Source: Sulfuricurvum sp. PD_MW2
GTDB taxonomy: Bacteria; Campylobacterota; Campylobacteria; Campylobacterales; Sulfurimonadaceae
Assembly: GCF_002633015.1 (NCBI RefSeq)
Contig: NZ_NSIU01000003.1
Location: 62,001-126,000 of the forward strand
Direction: 5' to 3'
DNA length: 64,000 bases
Positions 55,281 to 62,083 of this stretch are shown here, piece by piece. A program made the position numbers and the translations under genes. Numbering within the stretch: the first letter of the stretch is position 1; the number at the start of each line of letters is the position of its first letter. A model generated the notes under the pieces. That model was not told the DNA's origin, ran no database searches, and saw nothing but the letters and a program-made list of their open reading frames with translations.

Positions 55281-55417
55281 CTTTGCTCCTACAACTGTAT
55301 TCCATTACCGCAATTATAGCATTGCTCGGATACAGAATCTTTACTCTAAAATTATTATTATTTTTTAATATGTACCGTGATATTCTATACTAAATATGAG
55401 ATGTGAAAGGAGACACG

Positions 55418-56167
55418 ATGGCTACTATAAATACTCAGTACAATCCTCTTCCGCAAATGAATACGGAAACAGCTAAACGCGATAAAACACTTGAAAAGAT
55501 TGCCTCGGCTATTGAACTGGGGATGGAAGATAGTGCTTCGCGCTCCATTTCGGATATGCTGCAAAATGAGATTTCTACAGCATCTCAAGGAATCATAAAC
55601 GCAAACGACGGTATCTCGATGATGCAGATTGTCGGCGGAACACTCAATTCGCTCTCCGATCAGACCCAAACACTCAATGATCTGAGTGTCCGATATAATA
55701 ATGCGTCTTTGGATGATTCCCAAAAACAAATGCTCCAAGGAGAGTTCAACCGTACCGTTGCATCCATGCAGCAAAGCATAGATAGCACGAGCTTCAATGG
55801 AAAACCTCTATTTGGAAACTCCATGAATTTCTCATTAGGTGATAGTACCATCTCGGCAACTGTGCCCTCACTTTCACCTTCATCGCTTGCCATTGACAAT
55901 CAAGACTCGATTAAAGCCTATAGCGATGCTATTTCTCAAGCGAATTCAGAGGTAGGATCAACAACCAATAATTTTGTAAGTGCCTCAACAGCTCTTTTGG
56001 ACAAAATTACTTCCACATCAGCAGCAAAAAGTCAGATCGCCGATACTGATATGGCCAATGCGATCAAAGAGTTTCAACAAACTAACCTGAAATTGGATAT
56101 GACGCAAATCGCCATTGCACATCAAAATGATATTTTACGCCAAAACGTAACACGGTTATTGGGATAA
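55418..56167 (+). CDS. flaC: FlaC-type flagellin-like protein
   Basis: The 249-residue protein has the conserved D0/D1 ends of flagellin (SASRSISDMLQNEISTASQG; LDMTQIAIAHQNDILRQNVTRLLG) and a short middle without D2/D3. This is the size and layout of FlaC in C. jejuni (249 residues), a secreted, non-filament flagellin homologue. Shared segments include the LNDLSVRYNNASLDDSQK and LAIDNQDSIKAYSDA regions. The ATG at 55418 is supported by AAGGAG at 7 bases; a GTG upstream is less likely. No clear sigma-28 or sigma-54 promoter was found; a TATACT occurs about 30 bases before the start. Confidence 0.85.
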   Translation: MATINTQYNPLPQMNTETAKRDKTLEKIASAIELGMEDSASRSISDMLQNEISTASQGIINANDGISMMQIVGGTLNSLSDQTQTLNDLSVRYNNASLDDSQKQMLQGEFNRTVASMQQSIDSTSFNGKPLFGNSMNFSLGDSTISATVPSLSPSSLAIDNQDSIKAYSDAISQANSEVGSTTNNFVSASTALLDKITSTSAAKSQIADTDMANAIKEFQQTNLKLDMTQIAIAHQNDILRQNVTRLLG

Positions 56168-56176
56168 AAGAAGAAG

Positions 56177-56204
56177 AAAGATCGAATGATTACATTCGAT
56201 CTTT
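56177..56204. terminator. Strong bidirectional hairpin with the argS stop codon in its loop
   Basis: AAAGATCGAATG (56177-56188) pairs perfectly with CATTCGATCTTT (56193-56204) around the four-base loop ATTA, which contains the complement of the argS TAA (56190-56192). The last codons of argS (Lys-Asp-Arg-Met) form one arm. T-rich sequence follows on both strands (TTTTG plus; CTTCTTCTTTT minus). Confidence 0.8.
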
Positions 56205-57770
56205 TGCTTGGATTCCAAGAAGAGAGAGTCCCGTTTTAATTGAGAGTGCAACGACAAGAAGGAGCTTAAGCAGCGCTGCTTCGTCTTCACTTCCGATGAT
56301 ACGGGTATCGTAATAAAATTTATGCAATCTTCCCGCTAACACTTTGAGGTAATCAGGAAGTTTTTGTGCTTGACGCGATTCAAAAGCATCATCGATAATT
56401 TCCGGCAGTAACAGCGCCTCAAACAACAATCCATCCGCATCTGCACTTAAATTGTACAAACGGGCATTCATGATCTCATCCATACTTTTTTCGCTTTTTG
56501 CGATTAACGTTTGGATACGTGCATGCGCGTATTGGATATAATAGATCGGATTTGAGCTGTCTTGGCGTTTAAGTTCTTCGATATCAAATTCAAGTGCCGT
56601 ATCACACTTTTTAGAGGCGAACATAAAACGTAACGCTTCTGCACCGATCTCCTCAACCACGTCACTCATCAAAATAACCGTTCCGGCACGTTTCGACATC
56701 TTGAACGGTTCACCGTCTTTGAGCAAACTCACCATTTGAGAGAGGAGTACTTCGAGTTTAGATGAATCGTACCCCAAGAAAGTGACTGCCGCTTTTACAC
56801 GAGCGATATATCCGTGGTGATCTGCGCCCCAGATATTGATGTAATCTTCATAGCCGCGCTCAAACTTTTGGTTATGATAAATAATATCACCTGCAAGATA
56901 CGTAGGACGGCCATCTTCACGCACTACAACACGGTCATGATCATCACCCAGTTCGGAAGAGCGGATAAAGGTTTTACCTTCATTAACGTAAACACCCTCA
57001 CCCATTTTTGCCATCACTCGATCCCACTCGCTGTACAACGACGCTTCACTGACAAAGGTATCGAAATGGATATTGATCGCTTTTAGGTCCTCAACAATGA
57101 GGACTAAAATCTTATCTTTTGCCCATAAAGCAAGCTCTTTTTGGCGACTCTCATCGCGAAGTGCTTCTTCACCAAATTTTGCTACCGCTTCACGCGCCAA
57201 ATCACTTAGATACTCGCCGCGATAATATTTCTCCGGCCACTCGACTTCTTCTCCGAGGAGACTAGAACGTCCTTCAAGTTGTAAAGAAACCCCAAGCAAA
57301 TCGATTTGATTTCCCGCATCATTGACGTAATACTCTGCCGTAATGTCATAACCTAGATGACGACCGAGACGGAGCATCGTATCACCGTATACGGCACCGC
57401 GTGCATGTCCGATATGAAGCGGTCCGGTTGGATTGGCACTGACAAATTCCAAAAGGATTGTCCCTTTTTTATCACTGCTTCCAAACTGTTCACCGTGGCT
57501 TAATGCCCACGATGCATACTCATCGAGAAATGATTCAGAGAGACGAAAATTGATATATCCTTTGACCGATTCAACAGCACCAAACATCTCATGATCGTTG
57601 AACGATGTAGCAATCTCTTCAGCAATAGCCATAGGAGATTTTCGAAGCTCTTTTGCTAGGGAAAAGACAATAGGGGTAGCGAAGTGACCGAAAGAGCGAT
57701 CTTTCGGCTTTTCGAGGATTACATCACAATTAAATTTCTCGCGCAACAGCGCACTCACTCGCTGCTTCAA
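56190..57770 (-). CDS. argS: Arginyl-tRNA synthetase
   Basis: ArgS charges tRNA-Arg. The class I motifs are NPTGPLHIGHARGAVYGD (HIGH) and FKMSKRAGT (KMSKS-like). The N-terminal Add-1 domain begins FNCDVILEKPKDRSFGHFATP. A DALR anticodon-binding domain ends the protein. The 526-residue length is usual for the phylum. It is 3 bases after tatA. The argS-tatA-gmk order matches C. jejuni and H. pylori as I recall it. A tRNA-Arg is encoded at 18288-18364. Confidence 0.95.
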   Translation of the reverse strand: MKQRVSALLREKFNCDVILEKPKDRSFGHFATPIVFSLAKELRKSPMAIAEEIATSFNDHEMFGAVESVKGYINFRLSESFLDEYASWALSHGEQFGSSDKKGTILLEFVSANPTGPLHIGHARGAVYGDTMLRLGRHLGYDITAEYYVNDAGNQIDLLGVSLQLEGRSSLLGEEVEWPEKYYRGEYLSDLAREAVAKFGEEALRDESRQKELALWAKDKILVLIVEDLKAINIHFDTFVSEASLYSEWDRVMAKMGEGVYVNEGKTFIRSSELGDDHDRVVVREDGRPTYLAGDIIYHNQKFERGYEDYINIWGADHHGYIARVKAAVTFLGYDSSKLEVLLSQMVSLLKDGEPFKMSKRAGTVILMSDVVEEIGAEALRFMFASKKCDTALEFDIEELKRQDSSNPIYYIQYAHARIQTLIAKSEKSMDEIMNARLYNLSADADGLLFEALLLPEIIDDAFESRQAQKLPDYLKVLAGRLHKFYYDTRIIGSEDEAALLKLLLVVALSIKTGLSLLGIQAKDRM

Positions 57771-57773
57771 GGC

Positions 57774-58016
57774 TTACGCTTGTGGTGTAGTTTTTGGAGT
57801 TTCTACCGTTGTAGTTGCAGTAGCATCAACTTGTTTCGGTGCTTCGCTTGCTGTCGGTGCAGGTGCTGCAGGTTCTTCTTCTTTCATCTCTTTTTTGAAA
57901 TTACGGATCCCTTGTCCGAAACCTTTTGCAAGCTCAGGAATTTTTTTCGCTCCGAACAAAAGAATAACGATTCCAAAAACTATTAACCAATGACTTCCGC
58001 TTGTAAAACCACCCAT
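57774..58016 (-). CDS. tatA: Twin-arginine translocase subunit TatA
   Basis: TatA forms the variable pore of the Tat system, which exports folded proteins with cofactors. The 80-residue protein has the membrane helix HWLIVFGIVILLFGAKKIPEL, the amphipathic helix GFGQGIRNFKKEM and an Ala/Pro/Thr-rich unstructured tail. tatB and tatC are not in this window. A palindromic -10 region lies upstream (58051-58065). Confidence 0.92.
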   Translation of the reverse strand: MGGFTSGSHWLIVFGIVILLFGAKKIPELAKGFGQGIRNFKKEMKEEEPAAPAPTASEAPKQVDATATTTVETPKTTPQA

Positions 58017-58115: not shown

Positions 58116-58739
58116 TTAACTTTGTTCTTCCCATTTTTGGACGAACTCGTTGATTTGTAACGTCGGGATTTTCATCCGTGCCGCTTTGGCGATAGAGACC
58201 AGAATCTCAGCCGCTTCATCGAGATTGTCATTTACCACTAAAAAATCGTATTCACTGATACGCTGTACTTCCCGCTTTGCCATCTCGATTCTTCCGGCAA
58301 TGACGGCTTCACTGTCTGTGGAGCGGTTATGCAACCGTTTTGTCAATTCTTCGAGTGTCGGTGTCGTAATGAAAACCGATGTCGTAATATCGCCCAAACG
58401 GTTTTGAACGGCATCATGCCCCTGAACATCAATATCAAAAATAACGAGTTTTCCCTCTTTTAATGCCTGTTTCACAGGACCAAGCGATGTCCCGTAGTAG
58501 TTTCCATGAACCACGGCATACTCCAAAAACATCTCTTGTTCGATATCTTTTTTAAACTCATCGATACTCACGAAATGGTAATGGACACCGTCCACTTCCC
58601 CTTCACGCATCCCTCTGGTCGTTGTGGAAATAGAAAAATATATCGGACCGATCTGATCTTTTATTTTATTGATAATTGAACTCTTGCCCGCTCCGCTAGG
58701 ACCGGATAAGACTAAAATGGCACCGCTGTTTCGATTCAC
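58116..58739 (-). CDS. gmk: Guanylate kinase
   Basis: Gmk phosphorylates GMP to GDP. The P-loop GPSGAGKSSIINK is near the N terminus, the GMP-binding TTTRGMREGEVDGVHYHFV follows, and a lid region is present. The 207-residue length is normal. Its start overlaps the acidic protein gene by 4 bases. tatA follows after 99 bases. Confidence 0.95.
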   Translation of the reverse strand: MNRNSGAILVLSGPSGAGKSSIINKIKDQIGPIYFSISTTTRGMREGEVDGVHYHFVSIDEFKKDIEQEMFLEYAVVHGNYYGTSLGPVKQALKEGKLVIFDIDVQGHDAVQNRLGDITTSVFITTPTLEELTKRLHNRSTDSEAVIAGRIEMAKREVQRISEYDFLVVNDNLDEAAEILVSIAKAARMKIPTLQINEFVQKWEEQS

Positions 58740-60133
58740 TTGTCATTTCCGAAATTGATATTAATGCTGATGTTCATCCCTTTCAGAGATTTTGCAACAT
58801 CTTCATTAGAGAGTGCTTTGAGCAATGCTTGCAATGCCTCAACACCATCCGTATGTGCAGCAGCTGTCTCATTGCTGATAGGCTGTACAACTTCAGATAG
58901 CTCTTCTGATTCATCCATCACAACTTCATCAAGATCGTCGATATCAATGATCTGATCATTTTGTGAATCCTCGTCTTCTATCTCTTCACCGATAGCACGT
59001 TTTAATTCCAGTTCATCCAACATATCCAATTCGTCAAATCCGCTCAATGGTTCTTTTTCTCCCTCAACTGTTTCATCTAAATTCAAATCTGCCATTAAAC
59101 TCTCATCGAGGTCTTCCGGCGATAATTCTTGATCGAGTTCATCACTGTCCAGGCTATTAACCGCATCATTGATTTTCGCTTCTAAACTATCCAAATAATT
59201 TTCATCATCTTCGAGTCCAGAGATATCCATATCTTCAAGCATGCTCTCATCTAACACTAAATCATCGATTGCTCCAGCCGGTTCTTCTATCAACTCTTCA
59301 TCAAAATCAATCGCCTCTTCGAGTGGAGCGCCAAGCGGTTCTTCATTCTCTGATTGCTCAGTAAATTCAATATCCCCAAATGCACCTTCATCGAGTATCT
59401 CTTTATCTGAGACATCACCGTTTTTCAAAAGATCATCGTCTAGCAGATCATCAAATTTCAGATCTTCATCAATCGAATCTTCCAGTGATAGATCATCAAG
59501 TTTCATCCCTTCACTCTCGTCCATTAAAAGATCTTCATCGTCGTGAATACCTTGAACAACGATATCATCATCCATAAACTCTTCGGTATCCTCCAAAAGG
59601 TCTCGAACCTCTTGTACCTCTTCTTGATCCAATACGTTCGTTTCCGGAAGTTTTTCATCCAGATCCTCTAAATTCCCAAAGTCAAACTCTTCATCATCCA
59701 AACCTTCCATTTCTGAAAGCTCCATATCACTTGATTCGAGTTCCGGTAGACTCTCTTCAAGATTGATAGAATATACGGGAGTATCAACAGTTTTGGTCTC
59801 TACGGAGGAATCCGTAGTTTTCTTCTCTATTCGAACCAGTAAATCAACTAAATCGGTCGGTAAAAACGGCTTATTGATTACATGCTCAAAGCCCTCAGGA
59901 ACATCGTTTCCACGTGTTGCCATCAATAATGTGCTTTTGACATTTATTTTGTTATTCAACGATTCAAACGTCTCATCATTGTACAGTGCATCATCCATAA
60001 TGAGTAAATCGTAGTCAGTCCCCTCGATCTCATCTACAGACCATACAACACTCAAATCATCTTTTGTCTTCTGTGCACTGAGAGCGACCAGTTTGCGAAC
60101 TACCGGATTATCGTTAAACAGCAAAATCTTCAT
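58736..60133 (-). CDS. Highly acidic protein with an N-terminal receiver-like domain
   Basis: The 465-residue protein is extremely rich in Asp and Glu from about residue 105 to 420, with repeated DDLDE- and LEDLD-type units. The first 100 residues look like a receiver domain: acidic pocket FNDNP (7-10), candidate phospho-Asp in IMDDAL (47/48), Thr73 and Lys88-Pro89 in INKPF. A conserved-looking non-acidic C terminus follows (VEALQALLKALSNEDVAKSL, then KGMNISININFG). The slot upstream of gmk is filled in C. jejuni by the 'highly acidic protein' and in H. pylori by the poly-E-rich protein. Function unknown here. Confidence 0.78.
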   Translation of the reverse strand: MKILLFNDNPVVRKLVALSAQKTKDDLSVVWSVDEIEGTDYDLLIMDDALYNDETFESLNNKINVKSTLLMATRGNDVPEGFEHVINKPFLPTDLVDLLVRIEKKTTDSSVETKTVDTPVYSINLEESLPELESSDMELSEMEGLDDEEFDFGNLEDLDEKLPETNVLDQEEVQEVRDLLEDTEEFMDDDIVVQGIHDDEDLLMDESEGMKLDDLSLEDSIDEDLKFDDLLDDDLLKNGDVSDKEILDEGAFGDIEFTEQSENEEPLGAPLEEAIDFDEELIEEPAGAIDDLVLDESMLEDMDISGLEDDENYLDSLEAKINDAVNSLDSDELDQELSPEDLDESLMADLNLDETVEGEKEPLSGFDELDMLDELELKRAIGEEIEDEDSQNDQIIDIDDLDEVVMDESEELSEVVQPISNETAAAHTDGVEALQALLKALSNEDVAKSLKGMNISININFGNDK

Positions 60134-60207: not shown

Positions 60208-60684
60208 ATGATAAAACTTCTACTTCCTCTTTTTATAGTTGTTTCCCTTTATTCACACGAAAACATCTATATCTTTCCAGATAATCACACCCGTTGTATT
60301 CATGAAATCAGTGATTTGATTAAAAAAAGTTCTTCTGTTTTAATCGTTAGTGAACATTATCACCATCCCGCACTCTCAAAAGCATTGATCCTTTCAGCCA
60401 AAAAAGGTACTCAAATAAAACTGATTCTCAATGATCTCCAAGGTGAGCCTTTATCATTAGTTCAATATCGCCATATCAGTCTTTATAAAACTTCCGCAGC
60501 ATTAAAGCAAAGTTATATTTTGATCGATAACACATTACTCTACACTGCGAAGACTGCTATTGATGAAGATCATTTCAGTAGACACCATCTCACAATGCAA
60601 TGCAGTGATTCGCCGCAAAAAATGAAGATGCAACATCACTTTTTGTCCCCTATTTTAAGCTCTTCTCATCCCTATTTAGAATAG
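60208..60684 (+). CDS. Periplasmic PLD-fold protein with a degenerate catalytic motif
   Basis: The 158-residue protein has a signal-like N terminus (LLPLFIVVSLYSH). The body follows one phospholipase D/Nuc half (SSVLIVSEHYHHPALSKAL; KGTQIKLILND; SYILIDNTLLYT). The HxKx4D catalytic motif should lie at residues 100-107 but reads Lys-Gln-Ser...Asp, so His and Lys are both missing. In H. pylori a Nuc-type PLD protein sits at this position. It is divergent from the acidic protein gene and its end overlaps fliR by 9 bases. Probably inactive as a nuclease. Confidence 0.65.
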   Translation: MIKLLLPLFIVVSLYSHENIYIFPDNHTRCIHEISDLIKKSSSVLIVSEHYHHPALSKALILSAKKGTQIKLILNDLQGEPLSLVQYRHISLYKTSAALKQSYILIDNTLLYTAKTAIDEDHFSRHHLTMQCSDSPQKMKMQHHFLSPILSSSHPYLE

Positions 60685-60689
60685 TTTTT
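60672..60689. terminator. Hairpin over the overlapping ends of the PLD-like gene and fliR
   Basis: CTATT (60672-60676) pairs with AATAG (60680-60684) around TAG, followed on the plus strand by TTTTT (60685-60689). The plus-strand stop (60682-60684) is in the stem; the fliR stop complement (60676-60678) spans stem and loop. The stem is short and AT-rich, so efficiency is uncertain. Confidence 0.45.
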
Positions 60690-61440
60690 CCAAGAAATTA
60701 TACGCACTTTGCGTCTGTGAAGTCACAATCATTAGCGTAGCTCCTAATGTCACCATCAATACTACGAATGAAACGGCGATTTTTATCGGTGTTCCGATAA
60801 CCAAAAGGTTGAACTGAGGCATCGTTTTCATCAACATCCCAAATATCAAATCGGCCATCATAGAGAGTGCCGTAATCGGAAATGCAATCATGAATCCTAC
60901 AACAAACATATTGCTCATAGCATGCATAATATATTGAAATAACGAAGGTGTAATCATAAATCCCCCTAAAGGGATAGATGAGATAGAAGCCGACGCATAG
61001 AGTAATATCCAATGATGTAAATCAAAAATGAGCAGTACCATCAACGCCAATAGCGCTAAAAACTGATTGATAATCGGCATCGATACTCCCGATTGAGGAT
61101 CAATAGCTGAAGCGAGAGAAAATCCCATCATAAACGATATTTGCCCCCCTGCAAACGTAATCACATGATACGCAAGTTGCAATACTACACCAACGGCAAG
61201 GCCAAATAGCATTTCACCCAAAATCGCTACGGTCAGACTAAGACCATCGGTAGGAATGTGCAGCGGGGGTACAACTCCGAAAAAGAAAATGGTAAAGAAA
61301 AAGGCCATCGCCGCTTTGACCGAAATAGGGATATTCATGTGGGAAAAAATCGGAACCGCCATAAACAAAGCGGTAAATCGCGTAAAGAGCAAAATGAATG
61401 CTATTGTTCGCCCTTCGCTAAATATTTCCGCCCACTCCAT
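60676..61440 (-). CDS. fliR: Flagellar biosynthetic protein FliR
   Basis: FliR is a core membrane component of the flagellar type III export gate together with FliP and FliQ. The 254-residue protein has about six spans. Family segments include SEGRTIAFILLFTRFTALFM, YHVITFAGGQISFMMGFSLA and DPQSGVSMPIINQFL. It is one base after the ABC ATPase gene. The fliR-ABC-tsf-rpsB order is shared with C. jejuni as I recall it. Confidence 0.92.
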   Translation of the reverse strand: MEWAEIFSEGRTIAFILLFTRFTALFMAVPIFSHMNIPISVKAAMAFFFTIFFFGVVPPLHIPTDGLSLTVAILGEMLFGLAVGVVLQLAYHVITFAGGQISFMMGFSLASAIDPQSGVSMPIINQFLALLALMVLLIFDLHHWILLYASASISSIPLGGFMITPSLFQYIMHAMSNMFVVGFMIAFPITALSMMADLIFGMLMKTMPQFNLLVIGTPIKIAVSFVVLMVTLGATLMIVTSQTQSAYNFLEKLF

Positions 61441-61441
61441 A

Positions 61442-62083
61442 TTATGACTCTTTTAAATTCCCGTTTTGCATTCGATAAATATGATTGCATTGCGCCGCTA
61501 ATGATTCATCGTGAGTGACTAAAATCATCCCCGCTTTATGTTCGCGCAAATAATCGTTGAATATTTGCATCACTTCCAATGCCGTAGCATGATCAAGATT
61601 GCCGGTCGGCTCATCCGCAAAAATCAATCGCGGTTTTTTCGACATAACCCGTGCTATGGATACCCGTTGTTGCTGCCCTCCGGAGAGTTCAGTCACTTTT
61701 TGATGGATGACATGCTCTATCCCTAAACGCTGAATCAATACCGGATCAATCGTTTCACCGGAGAGTAACGTTGCCACCTCGAGATTTTCATAGGCACTAA
61801 ACCCTTTGAACAAATAATGGCTTTGATATATCATCCCCAAATCATTACGCCGTAATTTCACCAGGGATTTGTCATCCATCCGATATACATCTTCTCCGAA
61901 AAGTTCTACGTCTCCATGAAGTGGATGCAACAGTGAAGAGAGTATATGCATTAACGTTGATTTACCACTTCCACTCACACCGACGATCGCGATCGATTCA
62001 CCGGCATTAAGTGTCAATGAGATATCCTCAAAAAGCGGATAATCAAAGGCATGAGAAAGTGAAGTTGCTTTTAATAGTGTCAT
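61442..62083 (-). CDS. LolD/FtsE-type ABC transporter ATP-binding protein
   Basis: The 213-residue ATPase carries Walker [13 protein letters not shown], the signature [15 protein letters not shown], Walker [20 protein letters not shown] and the switch His in VTHDESLA. It is of the LolD/MacB/FtsE group that powers mechanotransmission without transport across the inner membrane. The membrane partner is not adjacent. Lipoprotein release is the likely role, but substrate assignment is inference. Located between tsf and fliR. Confidence 0.85.

Follow-up and report, generated by a model that had tools for sequence, protein, structure and literature searches.

The closest described counterparts of the protein analysed here are the ChePep proteins of Helicobacter pylori and Campylobacter jejuni, whose name reportedly dates from a 2011 paper. 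According to the available parts of the papers cited in this paragraph, HP0322 of H. pylori was first annotated as a 'poly E-rich protein' and was then renamed ChePep (PMC3561388), and ChePep is described as a Campylobacterota-only protein that is important for the polar localisation and the function of CheZ (PMC11237671). Its importance for the polar localisation of CheZ is also given in PMC7750401, and in H. pylori ChePep and CheZ depend on each other for localisation (PMC5447363). A chePep deletion in C. jejuni hyper-reverses (120 vs. 95 reversals per min; PMC9665402), and ChePep matters for colonisation of the gastric glands (PMC6497225) and of the mouse gut (PMC5438104).

The N-terminal domain of ChePep can also be set beside ordinary receivers (CheY and OmpR-type; PF00072), with which it shares the fold, Asp47 and Lys88-Pro, and from which it differs in that its acidic pair is incomplete, helix 4 is not predicted and PF00072 is blind to the domain. 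A further relative in fold is HP1043 of H. pylori, an atypical response regulator that works without phosphorylation; 2pln, which we take to be the structure of HP1043, was in our Foldseek list with an E value of 7.6e-4. HP1043 is a DNA-binding regulator, whereas the ChePep model has a disordered linker and a small tail.

Identity and neighbourhood of the window's ChePep homologue

The window is the whole stretch of DNA that was analysed, 64,000 nucleotides from Sulfuricurvum sp. PD_MW2. The ORF singled out in the initial annotation exists and lies on the minus strand, which had not been given at the time (Table 1). It is the single match to the chePep homologue in the whole genome of 2.26 Mb and encodes the most acidic protein among the 57 window ORFs of at least 150 aa (32% D/E; next 21%). 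Since it also has homologues throughout the phylum, the acidic ORF is not a product of chance.

The receiver part of the protein has homologues in 55 of 61 genomes sampled from its own family. Of 298 phylum genomes (completeness at least 90%), 286 were matched by a receiver profile built from 38 own-family sequences, a count that includes some weak profile matches taken on score alone. A broader profile recovered 10 of the 12 genomes that the receiver profile had missed, with E values no higher than 8.7e-10; its matches in the remaining two, G140 and G329, were false. In a profile-profile comparison, the window's family matched a Helicobacter set (genus g30 and relatives) with an E value of 2.3e-20, the window receiver being 29-34% identical to this set. 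A scan of named genomes, fetched with patterns containing KPFLPT and N[QN][ND], returned 77 loci whose titles are of Campylobacterota groups save for one 'bacterium'; many were Helicobacter, including H. cetorum, and H. pylori itself was not among the 77. The receiver-type N terminus, acidic middle and conserved tail are common to the window protein and to the described proteins HP0322 and C. jejuni CJJ81176_1193, and the window tail is alignable with Helicobacter tails. In addition, the gmk-tatA-argS neighbourhood is the same in the Helicobacter- and Campylobacter-like genomes compared, HP0322 being presumably the position of chePep in the H. pylori gene order. The window protein keeps D8 and no tandem repeats were found in its linker DNA, whereas a Helicobacter linker shows protein repeats. 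Judged by homology, the gene is the local chePep and belongs to a known family; thus the 'new kind of scaffold' that had been proposed for it, and with it a new scaffold family, was rejected, ChePep having been known since 2011. The proposed link to motility held up, in that the available parts of PMC11237671 and PMC9665402 place flagellar reversals under the control of the homologue ChePep. Neither Pfam nor NCBIfam gave a name for the protein at E 0.001. In the Sulfurimonas literature, the available part of PMC9321776 has ChePep only in a reference, and that of PMC5447363 is on H. pylori.

The genes around chePep are ordered argS-tatA-gmk-chePep-fliR-ABC-tsf-rpsB, where argS, tsf and rpsB are the names that we assume for these neighbours, and the stop of chePep and the GTG start of gmk overlap by four bases (GTGA), as read from the sequence. 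Among 20 loci from 13 families, gmk lay downstream of chePep every time, with FliR detected nearby in 10, the position of chePep being taken from the profile match in the four loci where the receiver was too divergent for tblastn; this agrees with the old, conserved gmk/fliR locus suggested in the initial annotation. A short ORF divergent from chePep (60208-60684, plus strand) has weak similarity to a NucT nuclease (E 7e-5, far below the curated cut-off) and is possibly degenerate. Beside argS, a short flagellin-domain protein of 254 aa is encoded at 55403-56167 (plus strand).

Table 1. Features of the chePep locus, in window positions
Feature	Position	Strand	Remarks
chePep homologue	58736..60133	minus	465 aa from ATG; ORF confirmed
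Atypical receiver, residues 1-108	59810..60133	minus	N7/D8 replace the acidic pair; D47, T73, K88-PFLPT
Acidic linker, residues 109-429	58847..59809	minus	mostly predicted disordered
Linker motif 1, residues 167-180, VLDQEEVQEVRDLL	59594..59635	minus	predicted helix 170-181
Linker motif 2, residues 372-386, LDELELKRAIGEEIE	58976..59020	minus	predicted short helix 374-380
Conserved tail, residues 430-465	58739..58846	minus	two predicted helices, then ISININFG segment
gmk (guanylate kinase)	58116..58739	minus	GTG start
tatA	57774..58016	minus	
argS	56190..57770	minus	kept in place in most of 20 relatives compared
fliR	60676..61440	minus	
ABC transporter ATPase, LolD/FtsE-like	61442..62083	minus	scores below curated cut-offs of those models

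Receiver domain, acidic linker and tail

Residues 1-108 were modelled by AlphaFold2 (53 sequences) with a pLDDT of 92.7 and a pTM of 0.86, and the model has the strand and helix order of a receiver, with helix 2 as a stub and helix 4 absent. Each of the 50 matches listed by Foldseek was a receiver or a response regulator, or contained one in a complex or fusion, matches with silent titles (e.g., 4euk and 6oec) being presumed to be of receiver type. VIA-align reached a Z score of 14.4 (rmsd of 2.2 across 107 residues). The receiver-like domain read from the sequence in the initial annotation was thus supported by the predicted fold. Profile-profile alignment with 29 receivers of the same genome gave a probability of 97.2% and an E value of 3.6e-11, and placed N7/D8 opposite the acidic pair, D47 opposite the phospho-acceptor and K88 opposite the conserved lysine. 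Six receiver-domain queries of Pfam brought up no receiver match, even with the threshold relaxed to E 10, NCBIfam did not call the domain a receiver, the domain was not among the 69 matches of PF00072 in its own genome, and a sequence search of the PDB gave nothing beyond one weak receiver-like match (E 0.24).

D47, D48, T73, K88 and P89 are present at the positions given in the initial annotation; the 'acidic pocket' described along with them is not, the pocket being formed by N7 and D8, i.e., by one acid here and by neither in most homologues. A set of 157 distinct homologues was compared, for which the run [KR]P.[LI]P was required (receiver L106, without that run, was left out) and the named loci had been fetched with the patterns given above, so that the conservation of K88-P92 and of N7 is inflated. 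No protein of this set had an acid at position 7 (Asn in 141), and 39 had one at position 8, 37 of them from the window's own family. Both pocket acids were present in all 29 ordinary receivers of the same genome that served as a control, these being the readable ones among the 30 best-scoring of the 69 matches. Given this loss of the acidic pair relative to the control receivers, we read the domain as non-switching and probably a module for docking; control by phosphorylation is unlikely for most homologues and may persist in the window protein. The alternative, which is what had been proposed initially, is that Asp47 still becomes phosphorylated and the receiver thereby switches the scaffold. 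The retention of Asp47 (155 of 157) and of Lys88 (151 of 157, within the selected set; K88 to P92 were also invariant in a 38-row family alignment that was not selected on this run) would be easily explained if phosphorylation persists, and the receiver fold as well as D8, kept in 34 of the 50 rows of the own family, point in the same direction. Against this, the first pocket acid is lost in all 157 homologues and the second is so rarely acidic, helix 4, which is part of the usual receiver output face, is not predicted, and position 73 holds S or T in only 65 of 157. A loss of the receiver residues in most homologues, which by the initial annotation would speak against its reading, was thus observed by half: it holds for the acidic pair and not for Asp47 and Lys88. 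With this metal-binding pair incomplete family-wide the proposed phosphorylation control was not borne out; we consider it unlikely. Still, that D47 and K88 persist, as does D8 in the window's genus, counts against reading the docking module as a non-switch.

The long Asp/Glu tract noted earlier was confirmed in the linker, which has 61 D and 63 E among 321 residues (39%), 11 K/R and a pI of 4.05. In a full-length model (33 sequences), pLDDT was below 50 for 239 residues, linker helices were predicted at 170-181, 313-325 and 374-380, and block means in the tail were 71-88. Two short motifs recur in the linkers: motif 1, roughly [VIL]LDxx[DE][VI]xx[VI][KR]x[LI]L, was found in 61 of 153 linkers vs. 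a shuffled mean of 0.02, and motif 2, A[LIMF]G[DE], in 72 of 153 vs. a shuffled mean of 6.9, both patterns having been written after viewing the alignment and linkers from close relatives not being independent of one another. The tail is, as had been stated, conserved and non-acidic (D/E 4 of 36), and in an alignment of 33 sequences one of its glycines is invariant and its I.I.F end nearly so. A tail profile matched chePep of the own genome at E 1.8e-13 and the homologue in G135 at E 1.2e-5. At E < 1e-3 it matched no non-ChePep protein, only ChePep tails, and these in five of the 11 genomes searched; for the remaining six even ChePep's own tail fell short of that level, and distant tails could escape the profile. 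The two recurrent linker motifs and the folded tail of about 36 aa are new. In the Helicobacter loci L134, L138, L140, L152 and L191, the usual tail is missing from the end of the chePep ORF, through either frameshift, phase variation or assembly error.

ChePep in genomes without flagellar and chemotaxis genes

The Pfam CheZ model (PF04344) was rejected as a detector for being too insensitive (107 of 298 genomes, with only two over the cut-off), and a CheZ profile built from 20 of the PF04344-matched loci gave a match in 250 of 298 genomes. The 48 CheZ-negative genomes, 28 of which were obtained as the difference between the ChePep and CheZ match lists, were searched for FlhA and CheW, absence of any of the three being defined as no match at E 0.001. 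The results showed that 15 genomes were positive for both and 33 were without both, and in 10 control genomes FlhA and CheW were both found in every case. Among the 33 genomes lacking all three are every sampled member of family f4 (19 genomes) and every one of genus g32 (nine); the others are three of f1 and one each of f7 and f5. ChePep was present as a receiver-bearing ORF in 31 of these 33, hereafter the non-flagellate genomes, 12 of which are one-contig assemblies; reading of the ORFs required the [KR]P.[LI]P run (29 of 31), and G063 and G257 were added by hand. The first profile match in G063 was spurious, and the true gene was found with the broader profile and read. No true ChePep match was obtained in the other two of the 33 genomes, G140 and G329, where the profile matches proved on reading to be a glycosyltransferase-like ORF and an ordinary response regulator, respectively; both assemblies are fragmented (110 and 240 contigs), and chePep may be absent from the assembly only. 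The 15 genomes with FlhA and CheW and no CheZ match (eight of f8, five of g29, G220 and G258) were all ChePep profile-positive, and CheZ in them may be too divergent or truly absent.

The linkers in the non-flagellate genomes are less acidic and also short, with a median of 103 aa vs. 342.5 aa in CheZ-bearing genomes outside f7. The median was, however, also low in the CheZ-bearing f7 (129) and in five flagellate genomes without CheZ (168), so that short linkers do not go with flagellum loss alone. gmk adjoins chePep in 29 of the 31 non-flagellate genomes, the exceptions being G250 and G263; in G250 (locus L294), chePep ends soon after the receiver and has no gmk beside it. Simple NG86 estimates of dN/dS for ten non-flagellate pairs, which share genomes and two of which use G036 (from the same genus, g11, and outside the flagellar search), were 0.09-0.28 for the receiver (estimable in nine pairs) and 0-0.19 for the tail (all ten), dS being saturated or not estimable in some pairs (L302/L304 and L290/L291); five flagellate pairs gave 0.09-0.41 for the receiver.

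Two explanations would do without a function of the protein in these genomes. The copies could be relics of flagellum loss on their way out, as the shorter and less acidic linkers, the truncated copy in G250 and the two genomes without a true match would suggest, together with the tail, which scored above the best of 620 shuffled proteins in only 22 of the 31 and was not recognised in nine, seven of them in g32. Loss of the flagellum, however, spans all the sampled genomes of f4 and of g32 and dN/dS is still low, in the receiver range of the flagellate pairs, and short linkers occur in flagellate f7 too; we regard decay as quite improbable. Alternatively, chePep could be retained only through coupling of its end to the translation of gmk and not for its protein. 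Such coupling would fit the GTGA overlap in the window and the position of the chePep stop: at 27 of the 29 non-flagellate loci measured, it falls between -6 and +74 bases relative to where the gmk match begins. Selection on the end of the gene alone is hard to square with the low dN/dS of both receiver and tail or with the retention of Asp47 in 27 and Lys88 in 30 of the 31 proteins, and we give this explanation very little credence.

Instead, the retention of ChePep in genomes without flagellar and chemotaxis genes suggests that the function of its core is older than, or separate from, chemotaxis, and since ChePep is kept without flagella, placing CheZ cannot be the whole story. The core of receiver and tail probably has a second, flagellum-independent role. 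No report of ChePep being retained without flagella or chemotaxis genes, nor of a link between ChePep and guanylate kinase, was found in print in a search outside which lay most of the subscription literature and both primary ChePep papers.

Linker motifs, CheZ and the proposed function

The distribution of the motifs, determined with patterns slightly looser than in the shuffling test, was compared across 47 of the 250 CheZ-bearing genomes, excluding L274 of f7, which had no ORF read, and across 5 of the 15 CheZ-negative flagellate and 29 of the 31 non-flagellate genomes, with kinship ignored. Motif 2 was found in 25 of 32 CheZ-bearing genomes outside f7 and in 1 of 34 without CheZ (0 of 5 flagellate and 1 of 29 non-flagellate). 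Motif 1 was found in 14 of the same 32 CheZ-bearing genomes, in none of the five flagellate genomes without CheZ and in 15 of 29 non-flagellate genomes, 14 of these 15 being from family f4. In f7, CheZ is present, ChePep is divergent with a short linker, and each motif occurred in 1 of 15 genomes. Based on the counts across these four groups, motif 2 accompanies CheZ outside f7 and motif 1 does not, and we propose motif 2 as a candidate CheZ-binding part of ChePep.

The genome that contains the window encodes CheZ (C45:27923-28639), FlhA and CheW, and so the window protein most likely does what ChePep does elsewhere. The protein consists of an atypical receiver whose metal pocket is lost or half lost and which probably acts as a docking module and not as a switch, of a long disordered acidic linker with short predicted helices and of a small folded tail. 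It most likely keeps CheZ, a phosphatase of the remote type, at the flagellated pole for the removal of CheY-P there, and a cell without ChePep would be expected to reverse too often. That the gene is the local chePep and encodes a docking scaffold that places CheZ at the flagellated pole is a reading in which we place high confidence. Counting against it are the divergent, motif-poor ChePep of the CheZ-bearing f7, the domain models that do not call the N terminus a receiver, and the retention of Asp47 and Lys88.

A wider reading, which we regard as evenly poised between right and wrong, is that chemotaxis is not at the heart of what ChePep does. Its phosphate-blind core of receiver and tail, often with motif 1, would have an older function independent of flagellum and chemotaxis, perhaps polar or with guanylate kinase, and motif 2 in the acidic linker would be a module added for recruiting CheZ and lost with the flagella. 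If ChePep is under selection without flagella, CheA/CheW or CheZ, its primary role could be sought in species that are non-motile. Pocket loss combined with the retention of Asp47 and Lys88 offers a sharp mutational test, and the distribution of the motifs predicts which segment would serve chemotaxis.

The CheZ proteins of the Campylobacterota (L241-L260) start with MTQEELDALM or a near variant and in most cases finish with a DDIEALIASFG-like sequence; both ends resemble what we take to be the EIDALL-type motif of FliM/FliN.
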